Assembly: GCF_964204865.1 (NCBI RefSeq)
Contig: NC_135251.1
Span: forward strand, 6,944,001-7,008,000
Reading direction: 5' to 3'
DNA length: 64,000 bases
Source of the DNA: Styela clava
Taxonomy: Eukaryota > Chordata > Ascidiacea > Stolidobranchia > Styelidae
A program made the translations under genes and the position numbers. The notes below the pieces were generated by a model. The model searched no databases, had not been told where the DNA came from, and saw only the letters and a list, made by a program, of their open reading frames with translations. Shown in pieces: positions 13,899-56,721 of the stretch. Within the stretch, counting starts at the first letter, position 1; the number at the start of each line of letters is the position of its first letter.

Positions 13899-16800
13899 CT
13901 ATATTACAACATCACATCCATGTATGCCTACTTTGAATCTGCCGTAAGGCATTTCAATGTATTCATCCGCATAGTATTCTTCCTCCAGCAAAGATTCATT
14001 GTCAATACTATTCAACCCAGAATCATAACTCATTGGTATCTTGTACGCTTCTTTCTCATCTTCATCTAAAACATCTTCGATCTGGAGATCCGCTTGCGTT
14101 TTGTTTGTATCGACCTCGTTTACATGGCCAGGAGAAGATTTTATATTGTCTCCTGATTCCGGACAACTGTCGTTTGTCTGTTCACTTTCTTCACTGAATG
14201 CCAATGTTGGAGATTTAGGTAAAGAGTCGTTCATTGCGTTTGATTCTTTTGGTATCTGATCAACATATTCCGAGTTCATTGCTTCGTTTTCATTTTCTTT
14301 CTGGTCACTCACATGTTGCAGCATTGAATCCAATGCAAGCTACAGAATAAAAAAGTAATAAATCTGACGAATAAAGAGTAAGAATGTTAATTTAAAAGTA
14401 AAAAGACATATAATAGGAGACCATGCAAAACAAGAACAATATGGAGTAAAAAAAGACAAGAAAAAATATATATACAAAAAGGGTAACAAAAAAGAAATAT
14501 GACAAAAACAATGAAACAGATGTATGGCACATATTTCAAAAGCACAAAATATCAAGGGATCGCAGAGTAATTAGGAGTAATTAAAGAAGGCCCAATCATT
14601 TCTAGCTAAAAAAAAATTTGTCGACTAACAACAACAAAAAAACACTGAAAATTTTAAAACGATTGGACCGACAGTTTTGAATTTTGAAGACGTCATCACA
14701 CAAAACTTCAAAGTAAAGAGTGAATCATACTGAGCCCGCAGAATAGCCGCACAGCCCACAGGTAATATAATGATGGACTTTAAGCGAAAAACACAATATT
14801 TAACCACTGAAAATTTCAAAACAATTGGTCCGATACTTCATGAAAAAAGTATCACAACAACACAACAACAATAAGATTACTAACAACAACAACAATTTGA
14901 CAAAACGATTCATGGATCTAATAGTCAGTTAATGCTTACTTGCTGATGCCTTGTCATTGGACTTGGTGAAATCTTATTTGTTCTCGTAATATGAATCGTG
15001 TCGTTTTTGACTGGCATTCCCAGGATTGGAGGAAGGAGATGAGTTTTCTTGAACACCGAACCTGAATATTATATTATTACAAAATTACATGACCTAATTG
15101 GTGAGTTTTTGTAAGAAATAAAATATGCTAATAACACATGGTTTTGATTTTATGTCTGATATAGCATGTGGCACGAATATACTACTAAACAGTTTGAATG
15201 AGTTGACAAATTCTTTCATGGTTTGAAAAATTACTGCTTGTCATGTTATTCAATCCACTCAGCCATAAAAACTTGAGCTATGAAAAGTACTGTGTTTTAA
15301 CGAATCAATCAAGTTAATAACTACAAGCTTTGAAAGAATAATAATTGTAATCAGATTGAATAATCTGATCATCCTCATTCTCAAAAATCAATGAATAATC
15401 CTTTCAATCTATCTAAAACGCAGCAATATTTGTGAGTAATAAATAACCTACCGACTTGTTTGCTGTCCTCTGTATCAGGAGTTATTGAATTTGTATCAGA
15501 ATCATCACTCGTTATCTTATCTGTGCCATTATTGTCTTCAACCTGATCTGATTTGAATGTTTCAGTCGTGAATTGTTCCAAACCAATTGCATCGACCTTA
15601 GCCGAAGTAGTCTTCTGCTTTTCATTGTGCCCGAGACTTGTTTTCTCTCTTCTAGTAAATTTACTGCTGATCTTCTTATTTGTATTCGGCGCAGTCAATG
15701 ATTTGCTTGTCCTCGTTCGTTTTAGTCGTGGAATTTTTGACTCAGTAATGATTTCGTCTGCGTCAGGAATTGTTGAAAGTTTTCGTTTCGAGTCCTGATA
15801 CCAAACACAAAAATAAGTAGTTTAAAATCATCAGATATATGTTTCTGTTGAATACACAGTAATACAGTCTAAATTAATTTGTCCTCATCTGCGAAAGTAG
15901 GACAATTTAAAAAAGGGCCCAATAGAGGTCGATATATAAAGTATCAATAACGTCTTAGAAATGTTTAAAATTGCAAGGGGAATTTATCGATACCATATAC
16001 TGTTTTGGTCCACACAGATGTATTAAATGAAGTAGAAGTACTTGAACAATTACTGATTGAAAAACAGAAACTTAATTGAAAACTGACTTCATAACAAAAA
16101 TGAAATTGTAAAATATCTTTATGAGTAGTATCAGTCAAAGATAGCGTTTACAAGCTGCATTGCATGGCTAAAAGTTCAAAATACTACATAACTATTTACA
16201 ATCTTGTACGGAACTATTTAACCAATTTATATTCAATAATCGAGAAAGCAATTTTCTACTTTGGATGCTAAACGGCCATATTCAATATCGTACCTTTGGT
16301 GATTCCTTTACAGCTTCCCCTCCAGTAGAATGTTCCGAGTTTGAACTTGGATGAGAAGAACTAGCGAAGTCAAAACTTATGCTGTCTCGGAACTTCCGTA
16401 GTCCAGAAGCCACATTCAGACCGAACACACCAGAAAACCAGGGAGGGGATTTCCCCCCGTGAGATGATGACTTCAAATTGTGACGACGAGCAAAATCAGC
16501 TCTCACCTAATCAAAATTAGAAGCATATTACATTATTGGAATTAATCGCACTGAGAATAAAATATTCATCTCGTAGGATTAATCATTCCTATTTTTGAAT
16601 TTCTGAATTACGTTTCTTCGCTTTGTACTTTAGTTAGTTAACTGAGTTATATCGAAAATATGTAGACGTATTTCAATGTCATTGACTTTTACCTCATAAT
16701 GACATTATGGGTTTTTTATCTCTATTTTCCGCTCCTAAATTAAATAACCTATGCTTCGTACTACCCGAAAACAATACAAAACCGAACATTCATTAAATGA

Positions 16801-19800
16801 TCGCCCATCGTATCAAAAATTATATATCAGATAGAGTAATTCGAAGTCAGATTACTTCAGAAAATAAATTGGCAGTTGAATACGCAATACACCAAAACAA
16901 TTTTTTAAAATTAAGAGCAACATGTTGTCATGTTCCAATTTTTAAATTTTATACATTTTAGCATTTTGATAGTAAAAATATTCTCCATTGTTGGACGAAA
17001 ATGTTTGGAGTGTTGCTACATATTTGTTAGGGACAGGATAGGATAGGATTTACATATTTATCCCCGGGGAGACCGCTTAATCATATTGAAAACTACGATG
17101 GTGGAGGAATCCGTAACCCACCAGCGGTAACGTGAACCACCCTACGGCAGGGGTCACCAAACTTTTTTGACCGCGGGCCGGGTATGACTCAAACTGTGTT
17201 GAAACGGGCCGGACAAATATTTTTGTCAATGTAATACAATAAATTCACAAAAGTTGGGAAATTCATTCAATTTATTCAACAATATGTATTCTACATTTCT
17301 GAAGACTTGGAATATTAAATTCTATCTATATCGCAGAATATAGATCGAGAACATCCTAGGAGAACATATATACAAGATTTCTATATCTAGACAACTATCC
17401 TGAGTTTAGCTGTTATCAAAACGTTGCAGTCATGGATTAGGAATGTTACAAAATCCGCCTTTTCGCGCCAAAAAAATGTACGCATCACGTACCATACGTA
17501 CGTAAGTGCCGTTACGCCGTGTCGGAATACTGCTCATAAAAAACGACTGCGGACTGCCTGCTGTAGCATTGAATTCCAAGAAATATTGACATAATTAGAT
17601 AAAATAAACAACTATTATCTGGTATTTGATTTTATAAATTCCCCAACATTCGGAGCTTTTAAAAATTACGCTCAAGTTATACGTAGTGCAAACTAATGAT
17701 ATTGTCCATGGGCACCAATAAAATTTATGTCGACGTGTGTATTTCTTTCCTAACTTGATACTTACCAATTTTTATGAAGTTTGTACTATCAGAACATTGT
17801 TAATTATTACCCCCAATGAATCACTGTCAAACTGTCATGCACAACTCCAGCGTTTATTTGCACGATCTTTCGGCGGTGTCAAGACCGTTGCCAGAATAAA
17901 ATCCTGAAATAGTCTCAATATTCCATAGTGACGCAATCGAAAGGTTAGTGATTGATATATATGTACATTCATATTTATTACAGTTCTTATCAAAAAAGTA
18001 TTAGAATCTTTATGGAAAAAATTGGCCTGTCGGGCGGTTCTAAAATTCCGATATCTCCGTAAACTTGGTATTGTTTTTCCTTTTCACTCAGATCTATCCA
18101 ATGACGCAGTTTTTGTTTAAATCGGATGAACTTTAATTTTTTTGTAACATACCTACATGAATATCCGCATTTAGGCAGTACAAAAGTTAGTGTGACTTGT
18201 GAAATTGGAGCAGTACGCGAGGGATTACAGTTACTGTTAGCGCGACGTGCACATTCGGCATTAATTTCAGCACAAGAAACGTAAACAGTTTCGCCCCACG
18301 AGTGCATCTTTCACAGAAACGTTGCGTACCCGGTAGAGAATTTTAGCCTATTTTGTCACAGCTATTTCTACACTAATTTTTCATTACTACTATTAAAACT
18401 ACAATCCCTAAGGAGGCAAATGATGATTGACTTATTTGATTCATACTTAAATTTCCCAAACCCAACCAAAAACTAACGAATAGCATTCAAAATCGCAAAA
18501 ACGAATTATTGTTTACAACCACGACTGAAAATCTGTCAGGGTGACAAAAGTGTCTGAGCGGATGCGGAAAAGAACGACGATGCTCGGGAAAATTTCTCTT
18601 GGAAAAAAATTTCGCTATTTTTTACGTGTTATTGCGGGCCGGATAAAATGACGCAGCGGGCCGGATCCGGCCCGCGGGCCGTAGTTTGGTGACCCCTGCC
18701 CTACGGCGTCGGGGAGTCCAGCAATCCCCTCACACATAATTGAAATATAATGAAAACGAATTTAAAATATATTTACCTCTGAATTACATAAGCAGTGGAA
18801 AACAAATAAAAAGAATCCTTGGAGAGAGTTCGTCGTCGCAAAAAGGTACTGGAACAGTAAAGTATCATGGCTCAGAGACAAGAGGCCAAATAACCACGTC
18901 GTACCAAGAAGTGGAGACAGAAAGATACTCCCTTTTACCGCGTTTCTGGATGTAATGGGGAACAAGATTAACAATTTACAAAAGTATGTCGCAGAAAATT
19001 TATTTTTGTTCTATGATAGTAGTCAAATTAGCCTATTTATCAGATGACAAAAAGCCTCAAATTTTCCCGTTTGGGTCATTAATACAATAAATTTGAATAT
19101 TGAAATTATCATAAATCTCAACATTCAAAAATATTTGTTTATTTAATCAATCAACGTTATTGGACACGAAGTGGACATAACGATCGTTTCTATAATATGT
19201 TGTTGTTCTTGTTCTTGTTGAACCAATTGCTTTGAAATTTTCAGTGGTTAAAGATAAAAATTTTCTTCAGAAGGCTTTTATTTTTTTTTGTGTGCTATGA
19301 CGTCATCAAAATTATTGCCATTAGGTGGCGCTACGTGTCCATATATTTGAGCGTAGCTCTCCTGTTTAGATTTGAGATCATTTCACAAATTTTTGAAACT
19401 CAAGTTTCTAAACTAGAATTATTTAGGATTTGAAAATTCTCGTTTTTCAAGGGACTCACAAATTTGTAAAAAAAAACACTTGGTATTTAACTGGGTATCA
19501 TAAAATTTGAATCTCAAAAATTTGAATTGTTTCACATTAAAAGAACATAATTATCTAGTACTGCTCTTGTAGCATCATATGCATCTTGTTACTTACTTGA
19601 CTTTGCTGATTCTGACATTATTAGTTTGGTCAGGTTGGATTCCCACAATGACTCGAACAACAGAGACCAGGATAACAAAATTGATAAAGATCACAAGTAT
19701 TGCAGGCGCAGCAAATGCCCAAATAGAATTGTCAGATGGTGATAACCAGCAGCTGCAAGAAAGTATAAGTTTTTAAAAAAAAAACGTAGTTTTAAATCTC

Positions 19801-20749
19801 GCGCATTTTAAAAGGGCAGACAACATGACAACGTGATAGAAACCAATGTCCAAAAGAGATCGTACATTTTAGTTCTTACTTCTGAACTTAGGTGCAGTGC
19901 AGTCTGGCATATGGTGTGTTAGTAAATTTCTTTGATATACAGTCAATATCCAATCTTTCAATGAATTTGATACTTACATCTTATTTGTTCCCAGCTGTAC
20001 GTTCAAAATTCCCATGGAAATCCCCATGACAATAGCGGGGATTCCCCAACCAGCAAATACATAATACTTCACCCAACGTCGAGCGGAGACGAATACAACA
20101 ACAACTTGGGAATAAAGAAACAAGCCTGAAAAAAAAATTATTTTAAATAGGCTATAATGATTCTTCCAAATTAACCGATATTCTTCCCAAAACATTGTTT
20201 TTTAATTTAAATCATCTAAATACTCTCCTCTGTGACATATGGGAACACTTTACTGATGCCAGTCAATCCGTCAAGTATTTACTAAACTAAGGGTGTACTG
20301 CAAAGGCAATATTACGAGACTTTTATGTCCGTATATTTGAGTATTGCTCTTTTGTTTATAAGACTTACTCATGTTCATATCTGATTACAACACGTAACAA
20401 AACTGCCTACAATCAGGTCCGGTTACCAGTCCGTATCGTTTAAAACTATAAAAGTTTTTGATATTATTAAATTGTTCAGTTTTATTTCTATCACAATTAT
20501 CTAAAAATCACTCAAAATATTATGATTTTTAACATTCTGTTTAACGTAAACCATTTCTCCTTAGCCATACTATTACCTTCAATCAGCATCCACGATAACA
20601 CTGCCATATTGAAGTAATACAGCAACACTGTAACTAATATACAGCTGTATTGTTGCCCTTGTGCAAGTTCTTCAAACATAAATACTAGATCAGCTGCACC
20701 TACTGCTACCCCAAGATTGAAATGGATCTTCATGTTCTCTGTGTGAAAT
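13899..20749 (-). CDS. Copy A: partial adhesion GPCR, TM2 to C-terminus
   Basis: Near-identical duplicate of the last eight exons of the receptor at 34815-56721. Exons: 20577-20749 (TM2-TM3), 19978-20125 (TM4), 19597-19752 (TM5), 18777-18945 (TM6-TM7), 16294-16506, 15452-15794, 14940-15061 and 13899-14339 (tail, stop TAG). All lengths equal those of copy B (173, 148, 156, 169, 213, 343, 122, 441 nt), all splice signals are present and no frame is broken. Differences from B are few, for example Ala for Thr in VDAIGL and in QADLQ. No exon for TM1, GPS or ectodomain lies between 20749 and the block edge at 21320, nor on this strand of the island beyond. It is either a very young dead duplicate, an alternative 3' cassette of the upstream gene, or an assembly artefact. 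Confidence 0.8.
14615..14930. repeat. Family D repeat in copy A intron
   Basis: Same family as 7840-8160. Here the CRE-like word is mutated (gaagacgtcatcacacaaaa). Two cactgaaaattt half-units with AAC runs are visible. It lies between tail exons 19 and 20, and its block B counterpart is 35535-35850. Confidence 0.55.
17029..18741. mobile_element. SINE-like repeat interrupted by a hAT element (copy A)
   Basis: Flanks of this insertion (tgctacatatttgtt and gaaatata) lie next to each other, allowing for divergence, in T1 (tgctacatattggttgaaat near 10926). The host repeat starts with aggataggatttacatattt, carries gaccgcttaatcata, and resumes after the hAT with cggggagtccagcaatcccc and tcacacata. 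Diverged relatives lie at 49203-49440, 60560-60760 and 61590-61720. Insertion therefore followed the T/A split. Confidence 0.65.
17148..18698. mobile_element. Non-autonomous hAT element (copy A), 1551 bp
   Basis: TIRs are CAGGGGTCACCAAACT at the left and AGTTTGGTGACCCCTG at the right, with subterminal gcgggccgg runs. It is flanked by a perfect 8-bp target duplication ccctacgg (17140-17147 and 18699-18706), diagnostic of hAT. The longest open frame (17990-18307, minus, 105 codons) shows no transposase signature I recognise, so the element is probably non-autonomous. It sits in the intron between receptor exons 16 and 17. Confidence 0.9.
19158..19368. repeat. Family C repeat (with TGACGTCA)
   Basis: Starts tattggacacgaagtggaca and continues taacgatcgttt. 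It then has gaaccaattgctttgaaatt, ttcagtggttaaaga, tatgacgtcatcaaaattat and ends at ccatatatttgagcgtagct. Other copies: 40143-40353 (block B partner), 50884-51130 and 63245-63630. It shares the tttcagtggtt/caattg words with family D in inverse orientation, so the two families are related. Confidence 0.7.
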
Positions 20750-20849
20750 CTGAAACGATGTATATGATGTGATCATCCGTAATCAGTAATTTAATTTTTC
20801 ACCATACTAAAGTACATATTATAAACAAACTATACAAAAAAGCAGAAGT

Positions 20850-20945
20850 ATATGTACCAAAATGGCGCACAATCTGAACATAGTATGTGTACCAGATTAG
20901 TTTTCCGGTTGTGCGTCATCTTGGTACACATACTTCCGGTGAGCC
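20850..20945. mobile_element. M-type palindromic element (block A)
   Basis: Arms agtatatgtaccaaaatggc and catcttggtacacatacttc are inverted copies, with gtatgtgtaccagattag in the core. It lies 5' of copy A exon 13; its partner in block B is 41825-41935. Confidence 0.7.
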
Positions 20946-24240: not shown

Positions 24241-24269
24241 GTGAAATAAAATTAAAAATAAAGCCTAAA

Positions 24270-25553: not shown

Positions 25554-28150
25554 TGTCAGAAAGTAAGTTTTGGCTGTGAGTAAAATAATTTCAGGGTCGT
25601 GTATTGTAAAAGAATAATTTTATTCGTGAAAAGGGTCATGCTTATTGAGAGTAGTAATATTTTATTATATGGCATTGAAAATGCAACATACATTTTAACA
25701 TAAAATTATTCAACGTTGTGAACTAAGAGATTCTCTGCTTGATAAATGTTATCTTCATATTTTCCCTACATAGTCATTAATAGTGTAATTGTGCTTAGTG
25801 GTCTGATCTATTAGTCAATACATTCGTTAGCAGTCTTGGATTAGCCGGTAAATAAACTTGGGATTGAACCTACGGAATCTCTCTTCGGACTCGGAATAAA
25901 ATTAATTATTACCATAGTAAAATAAAGTCGAAGATTTTGAACATAATGAAATAAAGAGTTCAAACGCAATAGTAAGTGTCATAATCTATTCCTGAATAAG
26001 TCAAAGCCCTCTGAATTTTATATTTCAGTAATTACAGCCCGTAAAGCAAGACAGATATATTATCCCCAAAAATGGGAAGTCGATAACACGGCAAATATAT
26101 TTTGACCTATGTATTTTACATCTCCCAATGTTTGGTAGGCTGTATTGTTATCCACTAATCCCACGGGTTGCTCAACGGATAGGTTTAATGCTGATTGTTT
26201 TTTGTCTGGAATTGTTTTGTTTTTCCATCATAAAAGCACAAGTGCTTATTTTATAAGATTTGATTAGGTTCAAGTGTTTTCAATATACCCCATTAAAATC
26301 TAGATAAAATCATTTTTTCTCACATCTTCTGATTACTGTTTTATGATCCTTTTTTTCCATCCTAGCTTTCCATCACTTGTATAACCATATATGGCTTTAT
26401 TTTAATCGAACGTTATTTGCTTAAACTTTCCGTGTTTTTCACGAGCCATGTCTTTATCTATACTTTGTAGAATATTGTGCTATAGTTTCATCATATGCTA
26501 TGCTTTAATAAAAAATCAGCAAGATACGATTACATCATGTTTTTATTTGCTCTTTTAACATCTCAAGATATCTACAACTACTAGGATCTTAGATAAACTC
26601 AGGTTGTATCAGGAAAAAATGCAAAAACAGACATGTAACTATATTTTAGCTAGTCGTGTAAATGGGCAAAATCTGTACGATTTTTGACCGCAAAATCGTT
26701 TTGAGTGCGAGTATAATAAATACTTTTTTTTCTCTATTTTTTCATTCTACTTTGTATCGGGGATTTAAGGACATTATAGAAAAAAAAATTGTCAACACTT
26801 ATCAACAGAACTACATACAACTTATTTTTTGTATTATTTTCTAACAGTATTGACAACGATGAATAAACAACAAACCTACTATCCACAGTAGTAAAGTATA
26901 CCGAAAAATAAAACAACAACACAAATAAAAAATGAACTCTAAAAGGAATCAAAACTATAAAACCTATGATAGTATGATAATATCACATGCTTTTCACTTT
27001 ATATGAAATAATTATATAATCTTTTGAATAACTTATATAAAATGAATAACTGTGTCGCGATTCAAAAAATTATAAAACAAATTTAAATTCACCGGGAAGA
27101 ATGCAATCAATATAAAACAGGTTATAAATAATTCATAAAAGGAAAACCCCGCTGGTGGGATTTAAAAGTATGAGACCTTGCAGCTGCTACAATTGCTTAC
27201 GTCGAAGTTTGAAGTATCCGAACTTGACCCTACAAGATATTTTTAATCTTGCAAACCCGGGTTAGTATGAGCTCTCACTCGTTTACTCGTATCAATAAAA
27301 AAACATGTCCAAAATTTTGGTCCCGTAGTATGTGAATCAAGATGACGGACACCGGAACGTAGTATATGTACCAGGTTAGGGTTAGGCCATAATTTCAGGT
27401 ACAAATACTACGAGAGTCACTTGGCTAGTCCTTGAACTCGTAATAGAACTAAAATAAGTAAAATTGAAATAAACTTATGACCTAACCCTAACTTGGTACA
27501 CACATACTACGTTCCCGTGTCCGCCAACTTGGTTCACATACTACAAGAGTACCGAAATTTTTCCAAATACTTCAGCAATGTGGAATTCGCCGCCTCATAG
27601 TCTTTTTCCATATTCTATTGACAAAATATCCTTCAGGTCTCTAATTCAATTGTCTTTACGGACGGGGAATTTTAGGTCATACTCCTTCATTGGCCCAGTA
27701 GCTTTTGGCACTTAAATGGTTGCCCGAATCTAAACGGCTCAATCCTGATTTTGAGCAAATTACTCCAGAAAAAAGATTATAAATTTAAAGATTATAAACA
27801 AACGATTGACTAAAAACAAGAATTTTGTCTGAAATGAAATTTGTTGTGCCTGATTATGATATTGAATATTGCAATAGACTCGAACAATATACGGCATAAT
27901 AACTCATGAAAAACTAACCACTGGGAAAAAAAAGTTCAGTATTTATTTGATTTACGGCACAAAAGGACTGACTTTTGTCTTATTAGAACTACGAGAAAAT
28001 AAAGTGCGAATCTAATCATACATAAGTGAGGCGGATAAAAAGCTTTTGGACACGTGGGGGATTCTCAAATTACCTTCATTGAAAAAATGAAATTACCAAA
28101 GATCACGGTATAAAACGAAAGTTGTAACAAACAACAATACAAGAACAACA
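25554..28150. other. Intergenic stretch between the 427-aa ORF and T2
   Basis: No gene recognised. It holds a tRNA-SINE-like piece at about 25795-25960 (gtggtctgatctattagtca, gggattgaacct). From about 26450 it resembles the 3' flank of the tail modules (tcagca...atgtttttatttgctc, ccgcaaaatcg), also seen near 6030, 12380 and 33300. An M-type palindrome lies at 27330-27550. Confidence 0.4.
27330..27550. mobile_element. M-type palindrome, long subfamily
   Basis: Outer arms gtagtatgtgaatcaagatg and cttggttcacatactac are inverted. An inner pair (acgtagtatatgtaccaggt/acttggtacacacatactac) and ggttagggttaggcc/gacctaaccctaac extend the fold around a core holding gaactcgtaatagaac. The close relative is 53568-53790. 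Confidence 0.65.
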
Positions 28151-28151
28151 A

Positions 28152-29429
28152 CTATATTACAACATCACATCCATGTATGCCCACTTTACCGTAAGGCATT
28201 TTAGTGTATTCATCCGCATAGTATTCTTCCTCCAGCAAAGATTCATTGTCAATACTATTTAACCCAGAATCATAACTCATTGGTATCTTGTACGTTTCTT
28301 GTACGTTTCTTCCTCATCTAAAACATCTTCAATCCGAAGATCGTTGTGGTCATCCTTCTCGTTTACATGGCCAGGAGAAAAGTCTATGACACTTTGACCA
28401 AGTGATGTTTTCATTGTACTGTTTGTATTATCTTCTTCGTTCCGCTTTTCACTTTCAGCACTGAATGCCAGTGTTAGAGATTTAGGTAAAGATTCGTTCA
28501 TTTCGTTTTGACTTCTTCGGTATTTGTTCAACATGTTCCGATTCCATTGCTTCGTTTTCATTTGCTTCCAGATTGATTTCATGTTGCAAACTTGGATCCA
28601 ATGGAATCTAAAAAATAAAAAAATAATAAATCTGACGAATAAAGAATAATAATGGTAATTTAAAAGTAAAGAGACCTTTAATAAGAGACCATGCGAAACA
28701 GGAACTAAAGGGAATAAAAAAAGACTAGAAAAAAAAATATACAAAAAGGTAACAAATAAGAAATATGACAAAACATTGAAGCAGATTTATGGAGCATATT
28801 CGAAAGGCAGAAAATATCAAGAGATCGCAGAGTAATCAGAAGTAATTCAAGTAGATCCAATCATCTTTAACTTAAAAAGATTAATCTGATGAGTTTTAAA
28901 AAAAAACTTTTTTTCCATCGAACAACAACAAAAATTTTTTTTTTTCAAAATGATCTATAAGTTTGTTTTTTGCTAGATAACCACTGAACATTTTAAAACA
29001 ATTGGTTCAGCAGTTTTGAATTGTGATGACGTCATCACACAAAACTTCAAAGTGAAAAACGATCTTCACTGAGCCTACAGAAATTTCTTAAATACATAGA
29101 GGTAATGGACTATCAAAAAATATAATCTTCGACCACCCAAATTTTTAAAACAATTTGTCCGGTAGTTAATGAGAAGAGCATAACAACAAAACAACGAGAA
29201 TATCGGTCAGAGACCGAAACTTATTGATTGAAAGTTAGGGGATCCCCCAAAACATCGCTCTTACTCCATAGTGACACCTTGTGTCCCATCACTAATTAAT
29301 TAATAACTCGCTAATCATACGACATAATTATTCCAAAATCAATAGGCTTCTGGTCCGACATATGATGAATGCACATGCGAAATCTGGAGCAGATTCGATC
29401 TCGCTTTCGTGAGATATCGCGTGCATCTA

Positions 29430-29464
<35 letters not shown>

Positions 29465-30514
29465 AATACTTATCAACATACTTACCGATTAAAATAGATA
29501 AGTAATAACAGTAATAACAACAGCAACAATTTAGAAAAACGATACATAGTTCTAATCAGTTATTGCTTACTTGCTGATGCCTTGTCATTGGACTGTGTGA
29601 AATTTTATTTGTTCTCGTAATATGAATCGTGTCATTCTTGACCGGCATTCTCAGGATTAGAGGAAGGAGATGAGTTTTCTTGAACACCGAACCTAGATAT
29701 TATAAACACAGAATCGTATTGATATTAATTATATGGTTACAAAAGGATTTGAATGAAATACGTGGATAAAATTAAAATGTAATAAAATAGTTTTTAAACA
29801 AAAATAAAAATCTGACTGGACTGGTATTTATTTTTGGAAATCAACCTATGATAATATGATAATATCACATGCTTTTTATTTTATAGGAAATAATTATATA
29901 ATCTTTTGAATAACTTATATAAAATGAATAACTGTGTCGCGATTCAAAAAATTATTTGCTCTACGTTGATTTTCAATCCACTCAAACATAAAAAAAATGA
30001 ACCGGGGAATATACTGTATAATAACAAATCAATCAAGTTATCAAATACATGATTCAGATTGGATGAACAATCTCTAAATTTTACCTAATCCCACTATCAT
30101 TAACCTAAAACACAAATAAATTGGCGAAAAAACTTTTAATCTGAACCACAGCAATGTTTGTAAAAAACAACTCACCGATTTGTTTATTGTCCTCCGTATT
30201 AGGAGTTATTGAAATTGTATCAGAATTATCACTCGTCATGTCATCAGTGCCATTCATGTGTTCAACCTGATTTGATTCGGATATTTCAGTTATAATCTGA
30301 TTCAGACCAATGGCATCGACCTTCAGTGAAGTAGTCTTTTGCTTTTCATTTTGCCCGAGACTTGTTTTCTCTCATCTAGTAAATTTATTGTTAATCTTTT
30401 TATTAGTATTCGGTGCAGTCAATGATTTGCTCGTCTTGGTTCGTTCTAATCGTGGAACTTTTGGCTTAGCAACACTTTCGTCTGCGTCAGGAATCGTTGC
30501 AGAGGTTTCGAATC
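28152..30514 (-). pseudogene. T2: decayed copy of receptor tail exons 18-20
   Basis: Exon equivalents: 20 at 28152-28607, 19 at 29571-29692, 18 at 30176-30514. Exon 17 is deleted: the 3' intron flank (caaagatgtcgttcacaagc) runs straight into 5' intron sequence (gagttacattactgg) near 30940. Exon 20 is frameshifted after EHVEQIPKK and carries a short local duplication (cttgtacgtttcttgtacgt near 28290). Its last codons still read GIHGCDVVI. Sister of T1 by shared indels and the TSLGQSVID segment. An R1 repeat has inserted in the intron between exons 19 and 20. Confidence 0.75.
29195..29507. mobile_element. R1 repeat copy 1
   Basis: Unclassified dispersed family of about 280-380 bp, six copies here. 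One end reads cgagaatatcggtc with hairpin CGGTC..GACCG and then acttat; the other end has hairpin CCGATT..AATAG/AATCG followed by ataagtaata. Internal words shared by all copies: ctaattaattaataactcgc, aatcaataggcttctggtcc, gatatcgcgtgcatctaaca and a (CAGA)n run, longest here (about 29429-29463). No ORF. Confidence 0.75.
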
Positions 30515-33420: not shown

Positions 33421-33504
33421 CATCGAACTAAAGAATGCAATCCTATTTTAGACCGCAAAATCGCCTTGAATGGGAGTATAATAAATATTTAGAACTCCAA
33501 AAGT

Positions 33505-37493: not shown

Positions 37494-40400
37494 CTAATCA
37501 AAATTAGAAGCATATTACATTATTAGAATTAATCGCACTGAGAATAAAATATTCATCTCGTAGGATTAATCATTCATATTTTTGAATTTCTGAATTACGT
37601 TTCTTCGCTTTGTACTTTAGTTAGTTAACTGAGTTATATCGAATATATGTAGACGTATTTCAATGTTATTGACTTTTACCTCATAATGACATTATGGGTT
37701 TTTTATCTCCATTTTCCGCTCCTAAATTAAATGACCTATGCTTCGTAGTACCCGAAAACAATACAAAACCGAACATTCATTAAATGATCGCCCATCGTAT
37801 CAAAAATTATATATCAGATAGAGTAATTCGAAGTCAGATTACTTCAGAAAATAAATTGGCAGTTGAATACGCAATACACCAAAACAATTTTTTAAAATTA
37901 AGAGCAACATGTTGTCATGTTCCAATTTTTAAATTTTATACATTTTAGCATTTTGATAGTAAAAATATTCTCCATTGTTGGACGAAAATGTTTGGAGTGT
38001 TGCTACATATTTGTTAGGGACAGGATAGAATAGGATTTACATATTTATCCCCGGGGAGACCGCTTAATCATATGGAAAACTACGATGGTGGAGGAATCCG
38101 TAACCCACCAGCGGTAACGTGAACCACCCTACGGCAGGGGTCACCAAACTTTTTTGACCGCGGGCCGGGTATGACTCAAACTGTGTTGAAACGGGCCGGA
38201 CAAATATTTTTGTCAATGTAATACAATAAATTCACAAAAGTTGGGAAATTCATTCAATTTATTCAACAATATGTATTCTACATTTCTGAAGACTTGAATA
38301 TTAAATTCTATCTATATCGCAGAATATAGATCGAGAACATCCTAGGAGAACAAATATACAAGATTTCTATATCTAGACAACTATCCTGAGTTTAGCTGTT
38401 ATCAAAACGTTGCAGTCATGGATTAGGAATGTTACAAAATTCGCCTTTTCGCGCCAAAAAATGTACGCATTACGTACCATACGTACGTAAGTGCCGTTAC
38501 GCCGTGTCGGAATACTGCTCATAAAAAACGACTGCGGACTGCCTGCTGTAGCTTTGAATTCCACGAAATATTGACATAATTAGATAAAATAAACAACTAT
38601 TATCTGGTATTTGATTTTATAAATTCCCCAACATTCGGAGCTTTTAAAAATTACGCTCAAGTTATACGTAGTGCAAACTAATGATATTGTCCATGGGCAC
38701 CAATAAAATTTATGTCGACGTGTGTATTTCTTTCCTAACTTGATACTTACCAATTTTTATGAAGTTTGTACTATCAGAACATTGTTAATTATTACCCCCA
38801 ATGAATCACTGTCAAACTGTCATGCACAACTCCAGCGTTTATTTGCACGATCTTTCGGCGGTGTCAAGACCGTTGCCAGAATAAAATCCTGAAATAGTCT
38901 CAATATTCCATAGTGACGCAATCGAAAGGTTAGTGATTGATATATATGTACATTCATATTTATTACAGTTCTTATCAAAAAAGTAATAGAATCTTTATGG
39001 AAAAAATTGGCCTGTCGGGCGGTTCTAAAATTCCGATATCTCCGTAAACTTGGTATTGTTTTTTCTTTTCACTCAGATCTATCCAATGACGCAGTTTTTA
39101 TTTAAATCGGATGAACTTTAATTTTTTTGTAACATACCTACATGAATATCCGCATTTAGGCAGTACAAAAGTTAGTGTGACTTGTGAAATTGGAGCAGTA
39201 CGCGAGGGATTACAGTTACTGTTAGCGCGACGTGCACATTCGGCATTAATTTCAGCACAAGAAACGTAAACAGTTTCGCCCCACGAGTGCATCTTTCACA
39301 GAAACGTTGCGTACCCGGTAGAGAATTTTAGCCTATTTTGTCACAGCTATTTCTACACTAATTTTTCATTACTACTATTAAAACTACAATCCCTAAGGAG
39401 GCAAATGATGATTGACTTATTTGATTCATACTTAAATTTCCCAAACCCAACCAAAAACTAACGAATAGCATTCAAAATCGCAAAAACGAATTATTGTTTA
39501 CAACCACGACTGAAAATATGTCAGGGTGACAAAAGTCTCTGAGCGGATGCGGAAAAGAACGACGATGCTCGGGAAAATTTCTCTTGGAAAAAAATTTCGC
39601 TATTTTTTACGTGTTATTGCGGGCCGGATAAAATGACGCAGCGGGCCGGATCCGGCCCGCGGGCCGTAGTTTGGTGACCCCTGCCCTACGGCGTCGGGGA
39701 GTCCAGCAATCCCCTCACACATAATTGAAATATAATGAAAACGAATTTAAAATATATTTACCTCTGAATTACATAAGCAGTGGAAAACAAATAAAAAGAA
39801 TCCTTGGAGAGAGTTCGTCGTCGCAAAAAGGTACTGGAACAGTAAAGTATCATGGCTCAGAGACAAGAGGCCAAATAACCACGTCGTACCAAGAAGTGGA
39901 GACAGAAAGATACTCCCTTTTACCGCGTTTCTGGATGTAATGGGGAACAAGATTAACAATTTACAAAAGTATGTCGCAGAAAATTTATTTTTGTTCTATG
40001 ATAGTAGTCAAATTAGCCTATTTATCAGATGACAAAAAGCCTCAAATTTTCCCGTTTGAGTCATTAATACAATAAATTTGAATATTGAAATTATCATAAA
40101 TCTCAACATTCAAAAATATTTGTTTATTTAATCAATCAACGTTATTGGACACGAAGTGGACATAACGATCGTTTCTATAATATGTTTTGTTCTTGTTCTT
40201 GTTGAACCAATTGCTTTGAAATTTTCAGTGGTTAAAGATAAAAATTTTCTTCAGAAGGCTATTATTTTTTTGTGTGTGCTATGACGTCATCAAAATTATT
40301 GCCATTAGGTGGCGCTACGTGTCCATATATTTGAGCGTGGCTCTCCTGTTTAGATTTGAGATCATTTCACAAAGTTTTGAAACTCAAGTTTCTAAACTAG

Positions 40401-43400
40401 GATTATTTAGGATTTAAAAATTCTCGTTTTTCAAGGGACTCACAAATTTGTAAAAAAAACACTTGGTATTTAACTGGGTATCATAAAATTTGAATCTCAA
40501 AAATTTGAATTGTTTCACAATAAAAGAACATTATTATCTAGTACTGCTCTTGTAGCATCATATGCATCTTGTTACTCACTTGACTTTGCTGATTCTGACA
40601 TTATTAGTTTGGTCAGGTTGGATTCCCACAATGACTCGAACAACAGAGACCAGGATAACAAAATTGATAAAGATCACAAGTATTGCAGGCGCAGCAAATG
40701 CCCAAATAGAATTGTCAGATGGTGATAACCAGCAGCTGCAAGAAAGTATAAGTTTTTAAAAAAAAACGTAGTTTCAAATCTCGCGCATTTTGAAAGGGCA
40801 GACAACATGACAACGTGATGAAACCAATGTCCAAAAGAGATCGTACATTTTAGTTCTTACTTTTGAACTTAGGTGCAGTGCAGTCTGGCATATGGTGTGT
40901 TAGTAAATTTCTTTGATATACAGTCAATATCCAATCTTTCAATGAATTTGATACTTACATCTTATTTGTTCCCAGCTGTACGTTCAAAATTCCCATGGAA
41001 ATCCCCATGACAATAGCGGGGATTCCCCAACCAGCAAATACATAATACTTCACCCAACGTCGAGCGGAGACGAATACAACAACAACTTGGGAATAAAGAA
41101 ACAAGCCTGAAAAAAAAAATTATTTTAAATAGGCTATAATGATTCTTCCAAATTAACCGATATTCTTCCCAAAACATTGTTTTTTAATTTAATTCATCTA
41201 AATACTCTCCTCTGTGACATATGGGAACACTTTACTGATGCCAGTCAATCCATCAAGTATTTACTAAACTAAGGGTGTTCTGCAAAGGCAATATTACGCG
41301 ACCTTTATGTCTGTATTTTTGAGTATCGCTCCTTTGTTTATAAGACTTACTCATGTTCACATCTGATTACAACAAGTAACGGAACTGGCTACAATCAGGT
41401 CCGGTTACCACTCCGTAACGTTCAAAACTATAAAAGTTTTTGATATTATTAAATTGCTCAGTTTTATTTCTATCACGATTATCTAAAAATCATTCCAAAG
41501 TATATTTTAGCATTCTGTTAAACGTAAACCATTTCTCCTTAGCCATACTATTACCTTCAATCAGCATCCAAGACAAAACTGCCATATTGAAGTAATACAG
41601 CAACACTGTAACTAATATACAGCTGTATTGTTGCCCTTGTGCAAGTTCTTCAAACATAAACACTAGATCAGCTGCACCTACTGCAACTCCAAGATTAAAA
41701 TGAATCTTCATGTTCTCTGTGTGAAATCTGAAACGATGTTTTGTATATGATGTGATCATCAGTAATCAGTAATTCATTTTTCCATCATACTAAAGTACCT
41801 ATTGTGAACAAACTATACAAAAAGGGTGCTCCGGAGTATGTGTAACAAGATGGCGCACAACCTGAACATAATATGTGTACCAGGTTAGTTTTCCGGTTGT
41901 GCGCCATCTTGGTACACATACTTCCGGTGAGCCCAAAAAAAGTAAAATGGTACCACAGGGTAAAGGAAGGCGCGAGACACCAAGACTGATTATCGAGCAG
42001 CGGCAGCGTAAATGTAGAGATAACAAACATAAAGTTCAATAATTTTAAATGACCCCAAAGTAAAGTAATATAGATAGAACAAGAGAGCATTGTTCTAATA
42101 TATAGGGACACGAAAGCCAAAACGAAACGGTAATAAATCCTTTACAGCGATAGTCTGGCCAACGGATCTTTGATATGCGGATTGGATCGTGAAACCGTCA
42201 GAGTGTGTGGAGTTTTTCATTTTGATGACGTCATCACACAAATTTCATAAAGCCCATAGAAATTTTGAAAATAAATTAAAATGTTAGCCTTCTAATGTTA
42301 ATCCAAACCACTAAAAACTTCAACCAATTGGCCCAGTAGCTAAAGAAAAAAGTGTTTCTTCTAATAACAACAACAAAATGAAGAAGAATGCTCAAAAATA
42401 GCAGAATAATAATAACAAAACGATAGGTCCAGGTCCATTTTGTGCCCAACTATCTAAATCTATCTTATCAGATTCTCACCCTAGACACTGATTTTGAATG
42501 GCATCGTTAAATGAAGGAATTTTGATTTAGAATTGTACAATACGTTCCTAACTGATTTTGAAGTCACATGTAAACATTTAAAAAAGGGAGAAGTTAACTA
42601 TAAATTCAATGCCCAGGACAGCAAATTATGTTTTATAATATGTATAATTAGAGTGTTCGATATGTTCCATTTACAGAAAATGGGTTTCCTGGATCTAAAA
42701 AAGGATTTATGCTTTTCAATGAAGGTTCGCCGAAGACTTTTAAGCCGGATATTTAAAATATTGGTTTAGAATAATTATATAAATAATAATAAAAACTCCC
42801 GAATGTAAAATCATACTTCAACATGATGAAAGCTCCACACATGACTAGGACTCCTCCTAGAGACAGAGCACATCCAATGTATGAAATCCAGCTCAACGCT
42901 AAGTTATGTAAAAGATAGGAATCGTCTTCCACACTGGTATCAACCATCTGAACGGAATGAATCTAGTTAATTCAAATGACTATCAAAGCTTCCATTCGTT
43001 GCTATATCATTATATCATAAATAAATCAATTTCAATCTCAATCTTCCATTTTTAAATGAACACAAATTCCTATTCGAATGATATTGAGTGAGACGAAGTA
43101 AAATAGATCACGAGTTGAAAAGACTATAAAGCATTGTTACTTATCGATTGTAATCGGTAAGTATGTTGGTAGGTATTTGTCTGTCTGTCTGTATGTCTGT
43201 TTGTCTGTTAGATACACGCGATATCACACGAAAGCAAGTTAATTTTGGGCGAATTATGTCGTATAATTAGCGAGTTATTAATTAATTAGTGATTGGACAC
43301 AATGTGTCACTATGGAGTAAGAGCGCTGTTTTGGGGATCCCCTAACTTTCGATTGATAAGTCTTCGGTCTCCGACCGATATTCTCGTTTTATATTTCGTC

Positions 43401-46400
43401 TATATTTTATCAACATATGCTTGAGAAGTAACTATCAGTAGAGGTTACGCGAGACTTACTCCCAATTCTTCCCCAATGCCTTAGCGCTGGTGAATCCGTA
43501 CGCGTATATTGCAAATGCTGTAGCAGGAATGAACATGACCATGCGATGCAATTCAACAGTCCTGCTGCACACTGTGACAACGGTATTTCTGTAATGTTTC
43601 GCCTGATTAAAATCAGACTTCCTCAGACAAACAGTTTATAGGACTCTTGAATTGCAAAGAATCTGATGTGATGGGAATGTGGTAAAAAATCGTCCAACAC
43701 AAACAAGCTCTGTTATTCACCTTCAGAAGAACCGCAAAGCTAGTCAAATGAACGCATTTACAGATGGTATGAGTTTCATTCGTCAATTCTAGCTCGCATC
43801 CTTCTTTCGACCAGCCACCAGGTGACGAACCATCTCTGAAATTAAAAAAGCAGATGTTAAAAATTTCAATGCTTAATTTTTATTCAATAATTTAGCAGAT
43901 GCCAGTATTGACTAAAATAGCCAGTATTGACTAAAAGTATTTACTGGTGTCTGTATTTAAGTTTTTTTGTAATAAAAAGGCAATGCTAAAATATATGGAC
44001 ACAAATACCAAAACAAAGTATTACAGGTATCCAATCTTTCGCAGTACTGGTACTATAGGCTTCTGGATTTGGAATGGACACCATATCGCAACGAACGCAA
44101 ACACAATAAATAGAGAAGGTCATTTTTAATTTTGATGACCTCATCAAACACAAAGAGCGAATTTTAGACCCCACAGAAACTTTAGAAATAAACAAAGGTA
44201 ACGACAACAACAATTAATAATAACTAAAAATTCCAAAGAAATTGGTTGAGGTAATTGAAAAAAAGACGATCCTTTCACAACAAGGACAACATAAAAAAGA
44301 ACATTAAAGATACCAACAACAACAACAAAATTACAAAACTATCCATAAGTTCATGTTGTGTCCAATAAAGAACAGTTGCTTTATTCATCTTCCCAATTAA
44401 CACATAACTCTATATAGACAAAAACTACTATTTACCCTTCTTCCCAATATACACAATGCAGAGACTCTTCTATCGTATTAGGTGCGGTCGTTCCTTCAAT
44501 TGGTGAGCCCGAAGAATTATCAGCATTTTCCGGGGATGTCGTGCTTTCTGTAACCGCCAGATCCTCCCCATTTTCTCCGCCTTGGGTGAAAATAATAACT
44601 ACGGGATCGTCTTTGAAAACGTGCTTTGCCGGTTTGGGATGAACACTAGTGGTCAGTACAGCGCTATTCACACGGTGCGTTGTTCCTTTTCTGGGATATT
44701 TTCTAAATTAAAAATAATACAAGTTCAATATATATTGTAAAGACAAAATATAATAGATAAGCAAATAATATATAGGCAATAATACGGCCATAGCGTAGAC
44801 TCAAATGCTCTTTGAATTTAGGGATTCCTGGTGACTCCTGATAGGAGTGCTACTTTTTGGATAGAACACTTTTGATCAGGTGGCTAGCAAATATTCAATT
44901 TCGTATGAGTGAAATATATCAAAAGAAGCTAGTTTGATCTGGCCCTTTGAATATGATTGCAGTTTCAGTTTAACAACAAACGGGCATCGTTCCAAACCGA
45001 AATCTGTCACCTGCCTTTGACATTAGTCCATGGATAATGGATTTTTTCACTGCTAATGCACGGCGAAATTAATTCTATATAAAAAATAAGATCATCTGTG
45101 ATAAATAGCTTACACGTCAGCATCACGTGATGGTATGACGTCACTTAAGCCTTTGTATCTGACATGCGTCACAACTGATCTGTTCCGTAATGCACTCCTT
45201 GGAACCATGATGATATCACCAGCGAGTACGTCATCTCTTTGTTGTGGCGAAACTAAAACATAAAAAAGAGAATCGAAGCATGTTTCAATATGCATATCGT
45301 CAGATATCAGTGGCTCCCACCCCGCACAGGGCCTTGTAGCGAAAGACGTCAACAATTGTTGTATAGTAATACCTATGCCTCCTAATGAATCTGTTATGGT
45401 TACAATGATTTTAAAGATTCTTTTCTGAAAAAAAATCCGGTTACCCAGGTAAGATGAACCATTGGAGCAAAAACTGGGGATAGCCGGCGTCAGTATTTTC
45501 TTATATGTATTAACACTGGTTTTAGCAGTAATTTTCTTCCTATTTTATGTTTTGTTAGTATCTCTGGACTTTTATGTAAGCGTTATTCATATCGTTTCGT
45601 GTATATTTCGTTATGAGTGATGGCAGATGGGTAAGTTGAGAGAAAGAAAATTATTACAGTCATTTTTAGTGTCAAGATAATATGAGGATGAAAGAGATAA
45701 TATAAGTTTCCACAATGAGTCTTGTTTACAAGGGCATTCTGAAACCAAATATTAAACGAGTACTTTCTCACCAGTAGTTACGACTCGCCCTTCAACACTT
45801 TTCTTTTGGGTTGTTTTCGACGGAAAGATATACATAGTATCTGTGTCGATTCCAAACGTCCCCTTGTCGGATTCTTCGTCTCCTTTTTTGTCCGTTTTTG
45901 TTTCAGTTTTTTTGAGAGATGCCATCAACAAAGCCTTCGAAATTGCTGGATTGATTACAGGAAATTCGACAATGTCCATCCACATTCCTAAAAATAATTT
46001 CAGTTTCATGTTCTCAATCATCTAGTGTAGTGGTTTACGATTGTAAACAAAAATTTGAAAATCTCTTTTTCACAATGTCAGCTGATTCACTGCGCCTAGC
46101 ACGTCGTGTTAACTTGCGACTATATTTTAACACATGTACTTTAATAATTGAAGGGCAGAAATATATGTACATGAGGTGAATATTGATTTTATGAGTACTT
46201 CCCCACGGTTCGTTCACGATATGGTACTCAAAACTAATTTTCGAAATTCCATAAAGTGGTGCATTTATTTTTATAATTGTTTCAGAACAACGGACCCATA
46301 ATGTACGGAAAGGTAGGAAAAATATAAAATAGGCTTCGTGAACGTGATTGGTTCAGTATCTAATGAGAAAGCGATAATCCTTTTCAGAAATAAAACACAG

Positions 46401-49400
46401 AAATCACGACAATAGCAGCATAATGAACAACATCAGCTTAGTAAAACGATTCATAAGTCCAAAAATGTCCTGGTACATTAGCAGAGTATTAATATATTCG
46501 ATATCATGACGTAAAAAAAATTGTTATCGGTTGCCGAATATACAAAACTCCTACCTATGTTTTCGGATTCCGCTACTATTGAAGTTGAATTGTCGTAAAA
46601 TAAAAGTCTCTCGCTGACGTCACGTGTGACCACTTCAGATGACGTCACTATACCAGCGATTCCGGTGACATTTGGGTCCTTGTAAAATGAAATATGAAAT
46701 TATATAATACAACTAACTATGCGAGGATTTATAAAATTAAAATTTATTGCTTTATTGTTTTAGAACAGTCGGAAACGTGTTTATCAGTCAATCTATTATG
46801 ACGTCACGGATTCGGGAGAATTGTTCCTTATACATCGATTTTGTTATCATTCCATGAGTCAAAGATCAAAAATAGGTATCTAATGTGACCGACGTATGTT
46901 AACTTTCGTTATAATTTTGTTTTGGTTACTTCAATGGAACATTATTCCCTTTTTATAAACAGCAAGTCCTTATGCATTTTTTTATATATCCTTAATAACA
47001 TGGCTATAGACGAGCGAATTCAAATAAACTGAGACGTACTATTGTGGGAGCATTGGAATCTTTTTCGTTCGGCATCACCAATAACTAATGAAGTAGGCCC
47101 TTGCTAAATTTTTTGTTCATGGGGTATCATTATGTTTGATTTACTTCTTTTATATATCAAACTAATTACGGCGAATTTAGCAGATTTAAACTTGGAGGGA
47201 ATTTGTGAAAACCACTGGAGTGAACCTTTTAAATACTTGTCGTAATATGGCACGTCAAGCTTGAGTTAGTTCAGTTAGAGCTGTCAGAGGAATAGCGCGA
47301 TTCGATATGAAGAATTCGAAATAGAATAGAAACTCGATATGATACATGAAGATACATTGAGCTTTAGAAATGACCAGGAAATGGAATAATTTCACAACAA
47401 GAAGTGTTACACTATACGTGTTTTGTTAGAAATTCATTTCATTGCTTCTCAAGTGCGGATGACATAGTCATAGACAGATTGCTAAGTTTTCAAGTCGAGA
47501 GGACAAGATAGTGTATGACGTACTGCTCTTGTTACAATCGTATTTAAGTAAAGTATATACTAGCAAAGTACAAAATTATTCAAAATTATCCGAATTATCA
47601 ATGAATAATCAATGTGCTTTCGAGTATCCACGACCTTAGAAAGTGTCTGAAGTGATGCCGTGATGCTCATGTCGCATTGGTATTTCAGTGTGTCTTATTA
47701 AAGAACAATAAACGAGAATATCGGTCGGAGACCGAGGACTTATCGATCTAATCTGCGGTTTTTATTTCATGACTCTATAGTGACACCACGTGCCCAAACA
47801 CTGATTAATTAATAACCCGCTAATCATACGACATATTTTATCCAAAATCAATAGGCTTCTGGTCCGAAATATGATGAATTCACATGCAAACTTTGGAGCA
47901 GATTCAATCTTGCTTTCTTGAGATATCGCGTTCATCTAACATACAGACAGAGAAATACCTATCAACATACTTACCGATCTTAAGATCGATAAGTAATAAA
48001 TTATCCTGGATTAGAAATGTATTACTCACTCTTTGCAAGGATTTCCATGATTGCTTGTGCGTCGGTTTCATCATTGAATCACTGACGTTGACAAGAACTT
48101 TGGCGAAGTTTTCACTGATTTCTGCGGTTGCATTGACTATCGGATTCAGATTCACTACAAGCTGTAAACGGGTTTTTTGAAAATAGCTAAGTATGGCGCT
48201 GCGTAATTGAGAATTAAACGAGAATATCGGTCGGAGACCGAAGACTTATAGATCGAAATTGCGGTTTCGGTTCATGACTCTATAGTGACACCGCGTGTTC
48301 CATCACTAATTAATAATAACTCGCTAATTATACGACATAATTCATCCAAAATCAATGGGTTTCTGGTCCGAGATATGATGAATGCACATGCAAAATTTGG
48401 GTTCAACCACGTCTTCGTGAGATATTGCGTGCATCTAACAGACAAACAGACAAATACCTATCAACATCCCTACCGATCCAAAGATCGATAAGTAACAAAA
48501 CTTGGCAGTATTGTATTGTTCGGCTCACATACTCTAAGACACAGCAATGCCTTTAGGTGAAGTCGCTAAAAATTTCGAAGCGAAATTTATATGCAGCTGT
48601 GAAATCTAAGTCTGTTTTTGGACCCATTTTTGTTTCTGCGGGCCCAACATTTTGGTATCGATCTTCTGGTTATCTGAATTCAACATTCGAGATTATTTTT
48701 CTATTTGGAGCCAAGATGATTCAGTTACCCGAACCCAATGATTGTTTTTTTGCGTATCCAAGAATAGTATTTAATGTTTTTATACGCAGATTTTGAGTAA
48801 TATGAAATTCTTTTACGGACCCAAAATCTAATTTTATTTCATGGTATCATATGCGACTTAAGAAAATGTCCATCTCGTGGGAAACGAAGGCCTATAAGAT
48901 GCTGAATCACGCGATAGACGATGGCTTCACTCCCGGTTACCAACCTACCTCCATCATTTGACTCATGAGATCCAACTCTCCAGGTGATACCGGAAATTCT
49001 TTTCCACTCCCATCGTCTTCCGGTTCAGAGTTCAACGAGTTACCAAAATCAGAAAGTACCTCGGTCGCTTCATCAACGCTAATTTCTGTAAGATTTTGTA
49101 TACGATGCATCTGTACATAAAAAACAGCAAAATATTGTGACCGCTAGGTGTCAATAAAGAATCGCTTGAATGGTATTTCAAATGCTACGCTTGAGTGGAA
49201 TGGAGTACCAAGATTTTTATATTTATCCCAGGCAAGAAGGGCTTAATCATATAACACACTGCGGGCTACTGTCGGCTTACTAGTTCAGGTCAAGTGAGAA
49301 AATAGCTGCGAGAGGTAATTGTTTCAAAGGGTGGGGAAAGCCGTAACTGACCTGGAGATGGCGGAAGCGTAGGCTAACTGACCCATAACCTGCGGCGTTG

Positions 49401-51353
49401 AAGAGTACGACAATCTTCTCGCACATAGTTACTCCTACATGGAATTCAAACTTGCTGAGCGGTGTATCAAACAAGTTTGTGAAAATAGGTTTTGGACGGT
49501 TATACGGTCCCGATCGCTAACTGAATACCCTCATCAGTAGAGTAGAGCATTTTGGCTACCATATTTAATTTTCCAAGATACACTACATCGAGCATAATGG
49601 GTATCCCCGTAGGGTGTGTACCAGGTTAGGGTTCAACCATAATTTTATTATTTTTCTTATTTCAATTTTATTACTATTTCGGGGACTGTCTGTGTTAGCC
49701 AAGTGAATATACCCCCTGCCCATAGGTTTCAGTCCCTTTACACAACTTGATGTAGAGTAAGCGAACAAAATTAGTTATCTCCATATTGGTACAAACACTA
49801 CTGGAGCGCCGCATAATATATGATCAAACAAAAAAACGAGAATATCGGTTGGAAACCGAAGACTTATCGATCGATAGTTAGGGGATCCCCCAAAACAGAA
49901 ACTGCAGTTTCGATTCATCCACTCTTGTAACTTGCGCACTGCGCATCACACACACACACTCGGCGGGTCTCAAAATTCTCTCGCTTTACAAAAATCTAGA
50001 TCACTATATCAATAATCGATTGATAACTCGCTAATTATACGACATAATTCGCCCAAAATCAATGGGCTTCTGGTCCGAGATAAGATGAATGCACATGCAA
50101 AATCTGGAGCAGATTCAATCTCGCTTTCGTGAGATATCGCGTGCATCTAACAGACAAACATACAGACATACAGACAAATACCTATCAACATACTTGCCGA
50201 TTAAAATCGATAAGTAATAATTGAACCTTACCTTGTGTTCTAAAATCTTATATTCCAAGGTTTTTCGTTCATAATATCCCCAATTCGGGTAGACGCCAGC
50301 TTCGGTTAGGGGAGCAGTCGGCGTTCCGTACTTTCCAGGAGGCGCGTCTTCCCGTGCGTTCTCGTACGTTCCACATCCTGGTTTGCTCTTACGAAAACTG
50401 AAACTTTTGCAATAGATTCTCGTCTCGTCTACGCAATGTTTGGCGCACTCTTCCACGTCATTTGTTTGCAACCAGAAGTTATATTCAGCTAAAAAAAAAA
50501 GGATTTTATTTTAAAAATACGGAATTCAAGCCGGTTTTGTTAATTTTTGTTGTAAACCTTTTTCGAAGGATACCAAAATATTTGATGTTTTGTTTCAATA
50601 ATCTCTCGAATGAAATGAAATCAAAATGAACTACAATTTTCGCATGTACCATCTATTTTTCTAGTTTTCTTCAATATGAAAACGTAAAGCGAATATTTTG
50701 AAAACTTTTAATTCATCCACATTCAATTATGAGCTAAAATGATGTCATATATTTGCACAAAAGACGTTTTGTGGTGTAGTTACACCAAGAGACTGCATAA
50801 ATTCATTTGTTTATTTGAACTACAGACAAACTACGGATTTGTAACTCGAAAATGATGTTATTTAAAAAGGGACTATCATATATTTATTGGACACGTTTAG
50901 TGGACATAACGATCGTTTTGTAATTATGTTGTTCTTGTTGTTCTTTGACACGTTTTGAAGAAATCGCTCTTCTCTTTGATTACTGGACCAATTGCTTTGA
51001 AATTTTAAGTGGTTAAAAATAAAAATTTTCTTGAGAAAACTATTACTTTTTTTTTTGCTATGACGTCATCAAAATTATTGCCATTAGGTGGCGCTACGTT
51101 TTCATATATTTGAGCATAGCTCTCTTGTTGTAAAGATGAAATTAATTTTAATATTGCAATTATTTATGATCATAATACTTACACATTCTCATTCCAGGAA
51201 TGTAGATGAAGTCGCCCAGAACTGAAAACAGAATTATAGATCAGTTCGAGTTAGATACTTTGATGAGTTCACTATTTATTTATTTCATTTTAGAGTGTTT
51301 TCATTTCTACAAAACAAGGTCTTGAACAGCAGATGGCACTCTAAAGATTAACC

Positions 51354-51384
<31 letters not shown>

Positions 51385-56721: not shown

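Follow-up and report, generated by a model that had tools for sequence, protein, structure and literature searches.

A single adhesion GPCR ectodomain upstream of two intact, probably homogenised TM2-to-tail cassettes in Styela clava: a possible alternative 3' module

Results

Anatomy of the receptor gene

The minus strand of the window, by which we mean the whole 64,000-nucleotide stretch analysed (C2:6944001-7008000, where C2 is a 31.3-Mb contig of a 376.6-Mb assembly of 379 contigs), carries an ADGRD1-like adhesion GPCR gene with PAN, GAIN, GPS and 7TM regions (Table 1). In the splice-joined model that ends in the nearer of two tail cassettes, cassette B, Pfam recovered 7tm_2 (1.6e-46), GPS (3.3e-16) and GAIN (1.7e-9), all exceeding the Pfam cut-offs, together with a PAN_1 domain. 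The GPS contains HL/T, which we take to be the cleavage motif, as CKCVHLTSFAVLL within exon 11, and the best PDB sequence match of the GPS-7TM part is ADGRD1 (8x9s, E 6.1e-65). The gene thus has the GPS and 7TM in common with the ADGRD1/GPR133 adhesion GPCRs, with a GAIN domain identified here by Pfam; unlike them, it has PAN_1 in the ectodomain and a duplicated set of TM2-to-tail exons. Vertebrate ADGRD1 presumably has a pentraxin-like domain. A putative start lies at 56721, and four ORFs tested in the region of exons 1-3 (51-56.7 kb) gave no Pfam hits.

The ectodomain and TM1 exons 4-12 occur once, as the initial annotation had proposed for exons 1-12: each of them has a single close match genome-wide. 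By tblastn within the window these exons match their own positions only, and the whole-genome search returned 17 matches, a lower bound for repeats and large families as are all our genome match counts, of which the nine strong ones are all here and the other eight belong to other genes at 39-50% identity.

Table 1. Positions of the receptor gene, its tail cassettes and relic modules in the window
Feature	Position	Strand	Remarks	Basis
Exons 4-12	42817..50488	-	PAN_1, GAIN, GPS (CKCVHLTSF), TM1; single copy	Splice-joined model, tblastn, Pfam, whole-genome search
Exon 12	42817..42947	-	TM1; donor AA/gtatga, phase 2 (two codon bases left over)	Splice-joined model
Cassette B, exons 13-20	34815..41727	-	TM2 to C terminus	Exon-by-exon reading
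B exons 13-16	41555-41727, 40959-41106, 40580-40735, 39762-39930	-		
B exons 17-20	37281-37493, 36368-36710, 35856-35977, 34815-35255	-		
Candidate AATAAA of B, first base	34523	-	291 nt after B stop; A counterpart 13607	
Cassette A, exons 13-20	13899..20749	-	TM2 to C terminus; own ectodomain not found	Exon-by-exon reading, tblastn, genome searches
A exons 13-16	20577-20749, 19978-20125, 19597-19752, 18777-18945	-		
A exons 17-20	16294-16506, 15452-15794, 14940-15061, 13899-14339	-		
Exon 13 of A	20577..20749	-	8 synonymous, 0 nonsynonymous vs B (41555-41727); outside core	
Homogenised core in A	13778..20258	-	B counterpart 34694-41240	
Relic tail module C	6625..11913	-	Exons 17, 19 and 20 open; exon 18 frame-broken; exon 16 a stub; exons 13-15 not found	
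Relic tail module D	27821..33049	-	Exon 17 absent; exon 18 with stop; exon 20 frameshifted; exon 19 open; exon 16 a stub; exons 13-15 not found	
Diverged 3' flank of D	26473..27822	-	Pieces 60-77% alike to A and B 3' flanks	

Two intact tail cassettes

Exons 13-20 occur twice in the same orientation, and the matching exon lengths, splice sites and phases reported earlier were confirmed. In both cassettes the lengths are 173, 148, 156, 169, 213, 343, 122 and 441, the internal introns are GT-AG with equal phases, every exon is open, and translation ends at a TAG stop. Cassette A shows no stop, frameshift or lost splice site in exons 13-20, that is, none of the marks of a pseudogene. The claim that exon 12, ending in phase 2, fits either cassette also held in the splice-joined reading, where its two leftover bases are completed by exon 13 of A or of B. 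The protein of exon 12 plus A is predicted to be a normal receptor that differs by two residues from that of exon 12 plus B. The exonic differences between the cassettes number 14: eight in exon 13, three in exon 18 (codons 303, 347 and 355), one in exon 19 and two in exon 20. A second ectodomain or TM1 belonging to A was sought in the spacer above it and elsewhere by tblastn, Pfam (in the spacer, five minus-strand ORFs from those of 55 codons or longer) and whole-genome search, and no close copy was found.

In intron 17, 71 bp of B (36810-36880) are missing from A (15893/15894). The non-coding sequence that the relic modules C and D align with is ~66 bases longer in B than in A, so this looks like a deletion in A. 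The two copies of intron 16 are 99.2% identical; that of B holds an insert of ~1.5 kb (~38130-39690, minus strand) with inverted ends and, as read by eye, an apparent 8-bp target duplication. The insert has a counterpart in intron 16 of A and resembles a hAT-type element.

Relic modules and tandem units

Two decayed tail modules, C and D, accompany the intact cassettes, forming two colinear units of ~15 kb in one orientation: C (6.6-11.9 kb) with A (12.1-21.3 kb), and D (27.8-33.0 kb) with B (33.0-42.3 kb). Neither the relics nor this colinearity appeared in the initial annotation. Homology between A and B ends inside intron 12 (21320/42317). The 3' flank of D resembles those of A and B, so C and D probably derive from an older cassette that shared this flank. 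Module C was considered as a working alternative tail and rejected, its exon 18 being frame-broken and exons 13-16 gone except for a stub.

All copies found lie at this locus. A genome-wide DNA search with the exon 13 region gave two matches, A and B, and one with the exon 20 region gave four, A, B, C and D. A protein search with the 7TM region gave 34 matches, 11 of which are here (A and B exons, plus C exon 17); the next-best gene lies on contig C1 at 51-56% identity. Extending the search 30 kb downstream and 20 kb upstream of the window revealed dispersed repeats only and no further cassettes.

Other elements were noted in the window. In the stretch separating A from D, the plus strand has an intronless open frame of 451 codons (24198-25550); it matches no Pfam family above cut-off and has hydrophobic stretches that, by eye, may be membrane helices. 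A dispersed inverted-repeat-like element (GTGTACCAAGATGGCG-like) recurs in introns and spacer at 27321-27553, 53560-53784, 20843-20947 and 41807-41888, and also at L025:3029-3252. At 867-1747, self-comparison shows a 65-bp unit repeated directly in tandem, its copies ~95-100% alike.

A probably homogenised core within an older duplication

Identity between the units changes in steps. It is 85-91% between C and D (65% to 97% in single 250-column windows), 96-97% below A and B and 99.2% in a core; on the other side of this core it falls to 94% in intron 13 and to ~90% above exon 13. The limits of the core, ~120 nt beyond the stop and ~130 nt ahead of exon 14, make it approximately the coding cassette minus exon 13, and it contains 53 mismatches in 6475 aligned bases, as compared to 144 in 2705 outside it. 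A two-breakpoint model improved the log-likelihood by 81.7 (80.2 on a coarser control grid), against a maximum of 9.8 in 200 permutations. Aligning the tail regions of all four modules gave 238 sites in favour of the grouping AB/CD, one of AC/BD and three of AD/BC, and non-coding identity there is 0.985 for A/B and 0.83 for C/D.

Since the core introns share the high identity, selection on the protein alone is an insufficient explanation. A sharply bounded block of excess identity lies inside an older, more diverged duplication, which is the pattern expected of gene conversion. Colinearity suggests that the units arose by a single duplication and, if so, A and B were overwritten later; that the same unit gives very different apparent ages for A/B and for C/D is what conversion of A/B alone would produce. 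We infer that gene conversion homogenised A and B, unequal crossing over followed by regain being a variant of the same idea. An old partial duplication followed by homogenisation very probably underlies the locus. The suggestion that A brings a "separately evolving" core and tail did not survive this comparison, because the proteins match at all but 2 of about 588 residues and the core introns are nearly as alike.

Two other accounts of the 99% identity were weighed. Two separate duplications, that of A/B being very recent and free of conversion, would produce it equally well. This is a very improbable history, given that cassette and relic sit side by side and in colinear order in either unit and that identity steps down on both sides of the core; a later copy would have needed to land exactly beside an older relic. 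The other account, that alleles of one cassette were placed in tandem by the assembly, draws on the range of identity between alleles in some invertebrates, which includes 99%. Here the flanks differ, the sequence above A beyond intron 12 having only seven short, non-colinear, mostly repeat-like matches to the ectodomain stretch, C and D are 15-17% apart with separate disabling changes, and the contig is 31.3 Mb long, all of which makes such an artefact most improbable.

Probable selection on cassette A

Exon 13 is not part of the core. Its eight differences are all synonymous (pS 0.229, pN 0), a result with P = 0.00046 assuming neutral evolution of A from the duplication onwards and full constraint on B. 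For neutral pair divergences of 0.079, 0.095 and 0.17, A should carry 5.2-11.2 nonsynonymous changes and shows none (P 0.0054-0.000013). Softer versions of the test are weaker, with P = 0.021 when each of the eight differences is given equal odds of lying on either cassette, and P = 0.071 when a divergence of only 0.02 is assigned to A. The pS of exon 13 resembles the ~17% non-coding divergence of C and D, as though the exon had retained its original age. Its synonymous divergence (0.23) is larger than the 0.06-0.10 of the introns next to it, a gap that patchy conversion may perhaps explain.

In the core, exons 14-20 carry four synonymous and two nonsynonymous differences, and coding differences (6/1592) are scarcer than non-coding ones (47/4883; two-sided p = 0.024). 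When derived changes were polarised with C/D under a lax rule, A had 0 coding and 9 non-coding changes and B had 3 and 4 (one-sided p for A = 0.014); under a strict rule A had 0 and 6, and B again 3 and 4 (p = 0.056). A first alignment of a slightly longer stretch gave 0 and 10 for A and 3 and 4 for B. Several differences, three of them coding in each version, are not polarisable in these counts. B thus shows no coding deficit among its derived changes, and among the amino-acid changes the only one open to polarisation (exon 18, codon 355) arose in B rather than A. With p = 0.056 under the strict rule, support for continued selection on A after the last conversion is weak.

Taken from the sequence comparisons, A has probably been under purifying selection for most of its history, and such selection may be continuing. 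The numbers are small; they argue against A having been dead since duplication, and weakly against a recent death. The other option in the initial annotation, a very young duplicate that is already dead, is disfavoured: the unit is old, as judged by the relics (85-91% identity by segment, 83% in their non-coding tail sequence), and exon 13 differs by eight synonymous and no nonsynonymous changes.

The chief rival reading is that A was recently stranded. In this scenario the original duplication was larger and A was, for most of its life, part of a full receptor, whose 5' half was lost, leaving a cassette that is silent and has yet to decay. Such a history accounts for an all-synonymous exon 13 without present use and agrees with the end of A/B homology inside intron 12; most of the ~5-kb spacer between the D flank and A is unmatched in the window, short scattered pieces aside, and the two relics show that tail copies do die at this locus. 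However, tblastn of the spacer found no remnant of an ectodomain exon, and DNA comparison of the spacer with the ectodomain stretch gave only seven matches of 38-238 bp, non-colinear and mostly repeats that occur elsewhere. The whole-genome search likewise turned up no close ectodomain copy at another locus. The relics are easily visible at 15-17% divergence, and an old 5' remnant should be so too. Among the changes polarised since A and B were last homogenised, A also has no derived coding one (p only 0.014-0.056). On balance we regard recent stranding as somewhat unlikely.

Possible exon 12-to-A splicing

A transcript joining exon 12 to A, as the initial annotation envisaged, is permitted by phase and layout, and signs of past purifying selection on A raise its likelihood; distance, candidate poly(A) sites and the pairing test stand against it. 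The acceptor of exon 13 is 1.1 kb from exon 12 in B and 22 kb in A. Besides the AATAAA that follows B, relic D has one at 27947, 204 nt after the stop position; these are only candidates because the motif is frequent by chance in such A/T-rich DNA. Docking/selector pairing of the unique part of intron 12 with the sequence that A and B share ahead of exon 13 was not clearly beyond that of shuffled sequences, the observed energy being equalled or bettered by 3/60 shuffles for B and 17/60 for A, and Rfam gave no hits reaching the gathering score. Use of this splice in vivo is, tentatively, our leading explanation for the preservation of A.

A further possibility is that A is silent in this haplotype and serves as a spare part, since unequal crossing over in the core could place A, or a hybrid, behind exon 12 in other haplotypes and so expose it to selection there. 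The substrate is suitable, being 6.5 kb at ~99% identity in direct orientation and 21 kb apart, and the locus bears signs of repeated duplication and exchange. With a single haplotype in view, this reading appears improbable.

Discussion

The history that best fits exon 12-to-A splicing would begin with repeated partial tandem duplication of the 3' half of an ADGRD1-like gene. The order of events suggested by the sequence is that a first duplication gave a distal tail copy, which later decayed to a relic, and that a second doubled a ~15-kb unit of relic plus full TM2-to-tail cassette. The outcome would be a single ectodomain followed by two intact cassettes, first B and then A. Gene conversion would since have kept these cassettes close to identical as the relics C and D diverged from each other, and purifying selection would have preserved A. 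Transcription past the poly(A) sites of B and D could then allow exon 12 sometimes to skip the nearer acceptor for the distant one and be joined to A. As a whole this is the best explanation at hand, and we offer it provisionally. The anatomy, the uniqueness of exons 4-12 and the pattern of differences are direct observations; conversion, selection and splicing are progressively less certain. With products so nearly identical, the choice of cassette would touch regulation or robustness rather than receptor sequence. On a more speculative and rather unlikely extension, the gene has two interchangeable 3' halves in which conversion equalises the protein and the choice sets the 3' end, transcript length or expression.

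A direct-repeat unit, a homogenised core, diverged flanks and decayed siblings are common to this locus and to partial tandem gene duplications with gene conversion in general. In contrast to an ordinary partial tandem duplication, the copy here starts in intron 12, which leaves an intact, phase-matched 3' half that looks preserved. Protocadherin and UGT1A clusters also join a tandem block of coding exons to a constant part, with the 5' part varying and the 3' part shared. The same holds for chelicerate Dscam genes with tandem 5' cassettes (PMC4835542); as in the present gene, a tandem coding-exon block shares a constant part, and the arrangement of variable and shared ends is reversed.

The closest layout is that of C. 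elegans unc-60 (ADF/cofilin), in which one 5' exon serves two downstream exon series and splicing factors hold back the near intron (PMC3469465). The Styela gene likewise has one 5' part and two complete, phase-compatible series in one orientation. The differences are considerable: in unc-60 a single first exon is common to both series, and the two proteins are tissue-specific with distinct properties, whereas in the present gene the common part comprises nine exons or more, the cassettes are homogenised, splicing to the second series is putative, and the products are two residues apart (2/about 588) and not distinct proteins. A survey of mouse adhesion GPCRs (PMC6667449) reports that the 7TM part is the most stable to alternative splicing, which counts against exon 12-to-A splicing, although variants with a different C terminus, produced by alternative 3' end exons, occur frequently. 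No description of an adhesion GPCR with duplicated 3' cassettes was found among the titles and abstract openings surveyed in the open-licence PMC literature.

If A is spliced to exon 12, this gene would be an adhesion GPCR in which TM2-to-tail is selectable as one block. Use of A would also make the locus a natural partial gene duplication kept by selection and conversion, with its dead siblings as an internal neutral yardstick. If A is unused, it would be the stranded 3' half of a gene caught before decay.
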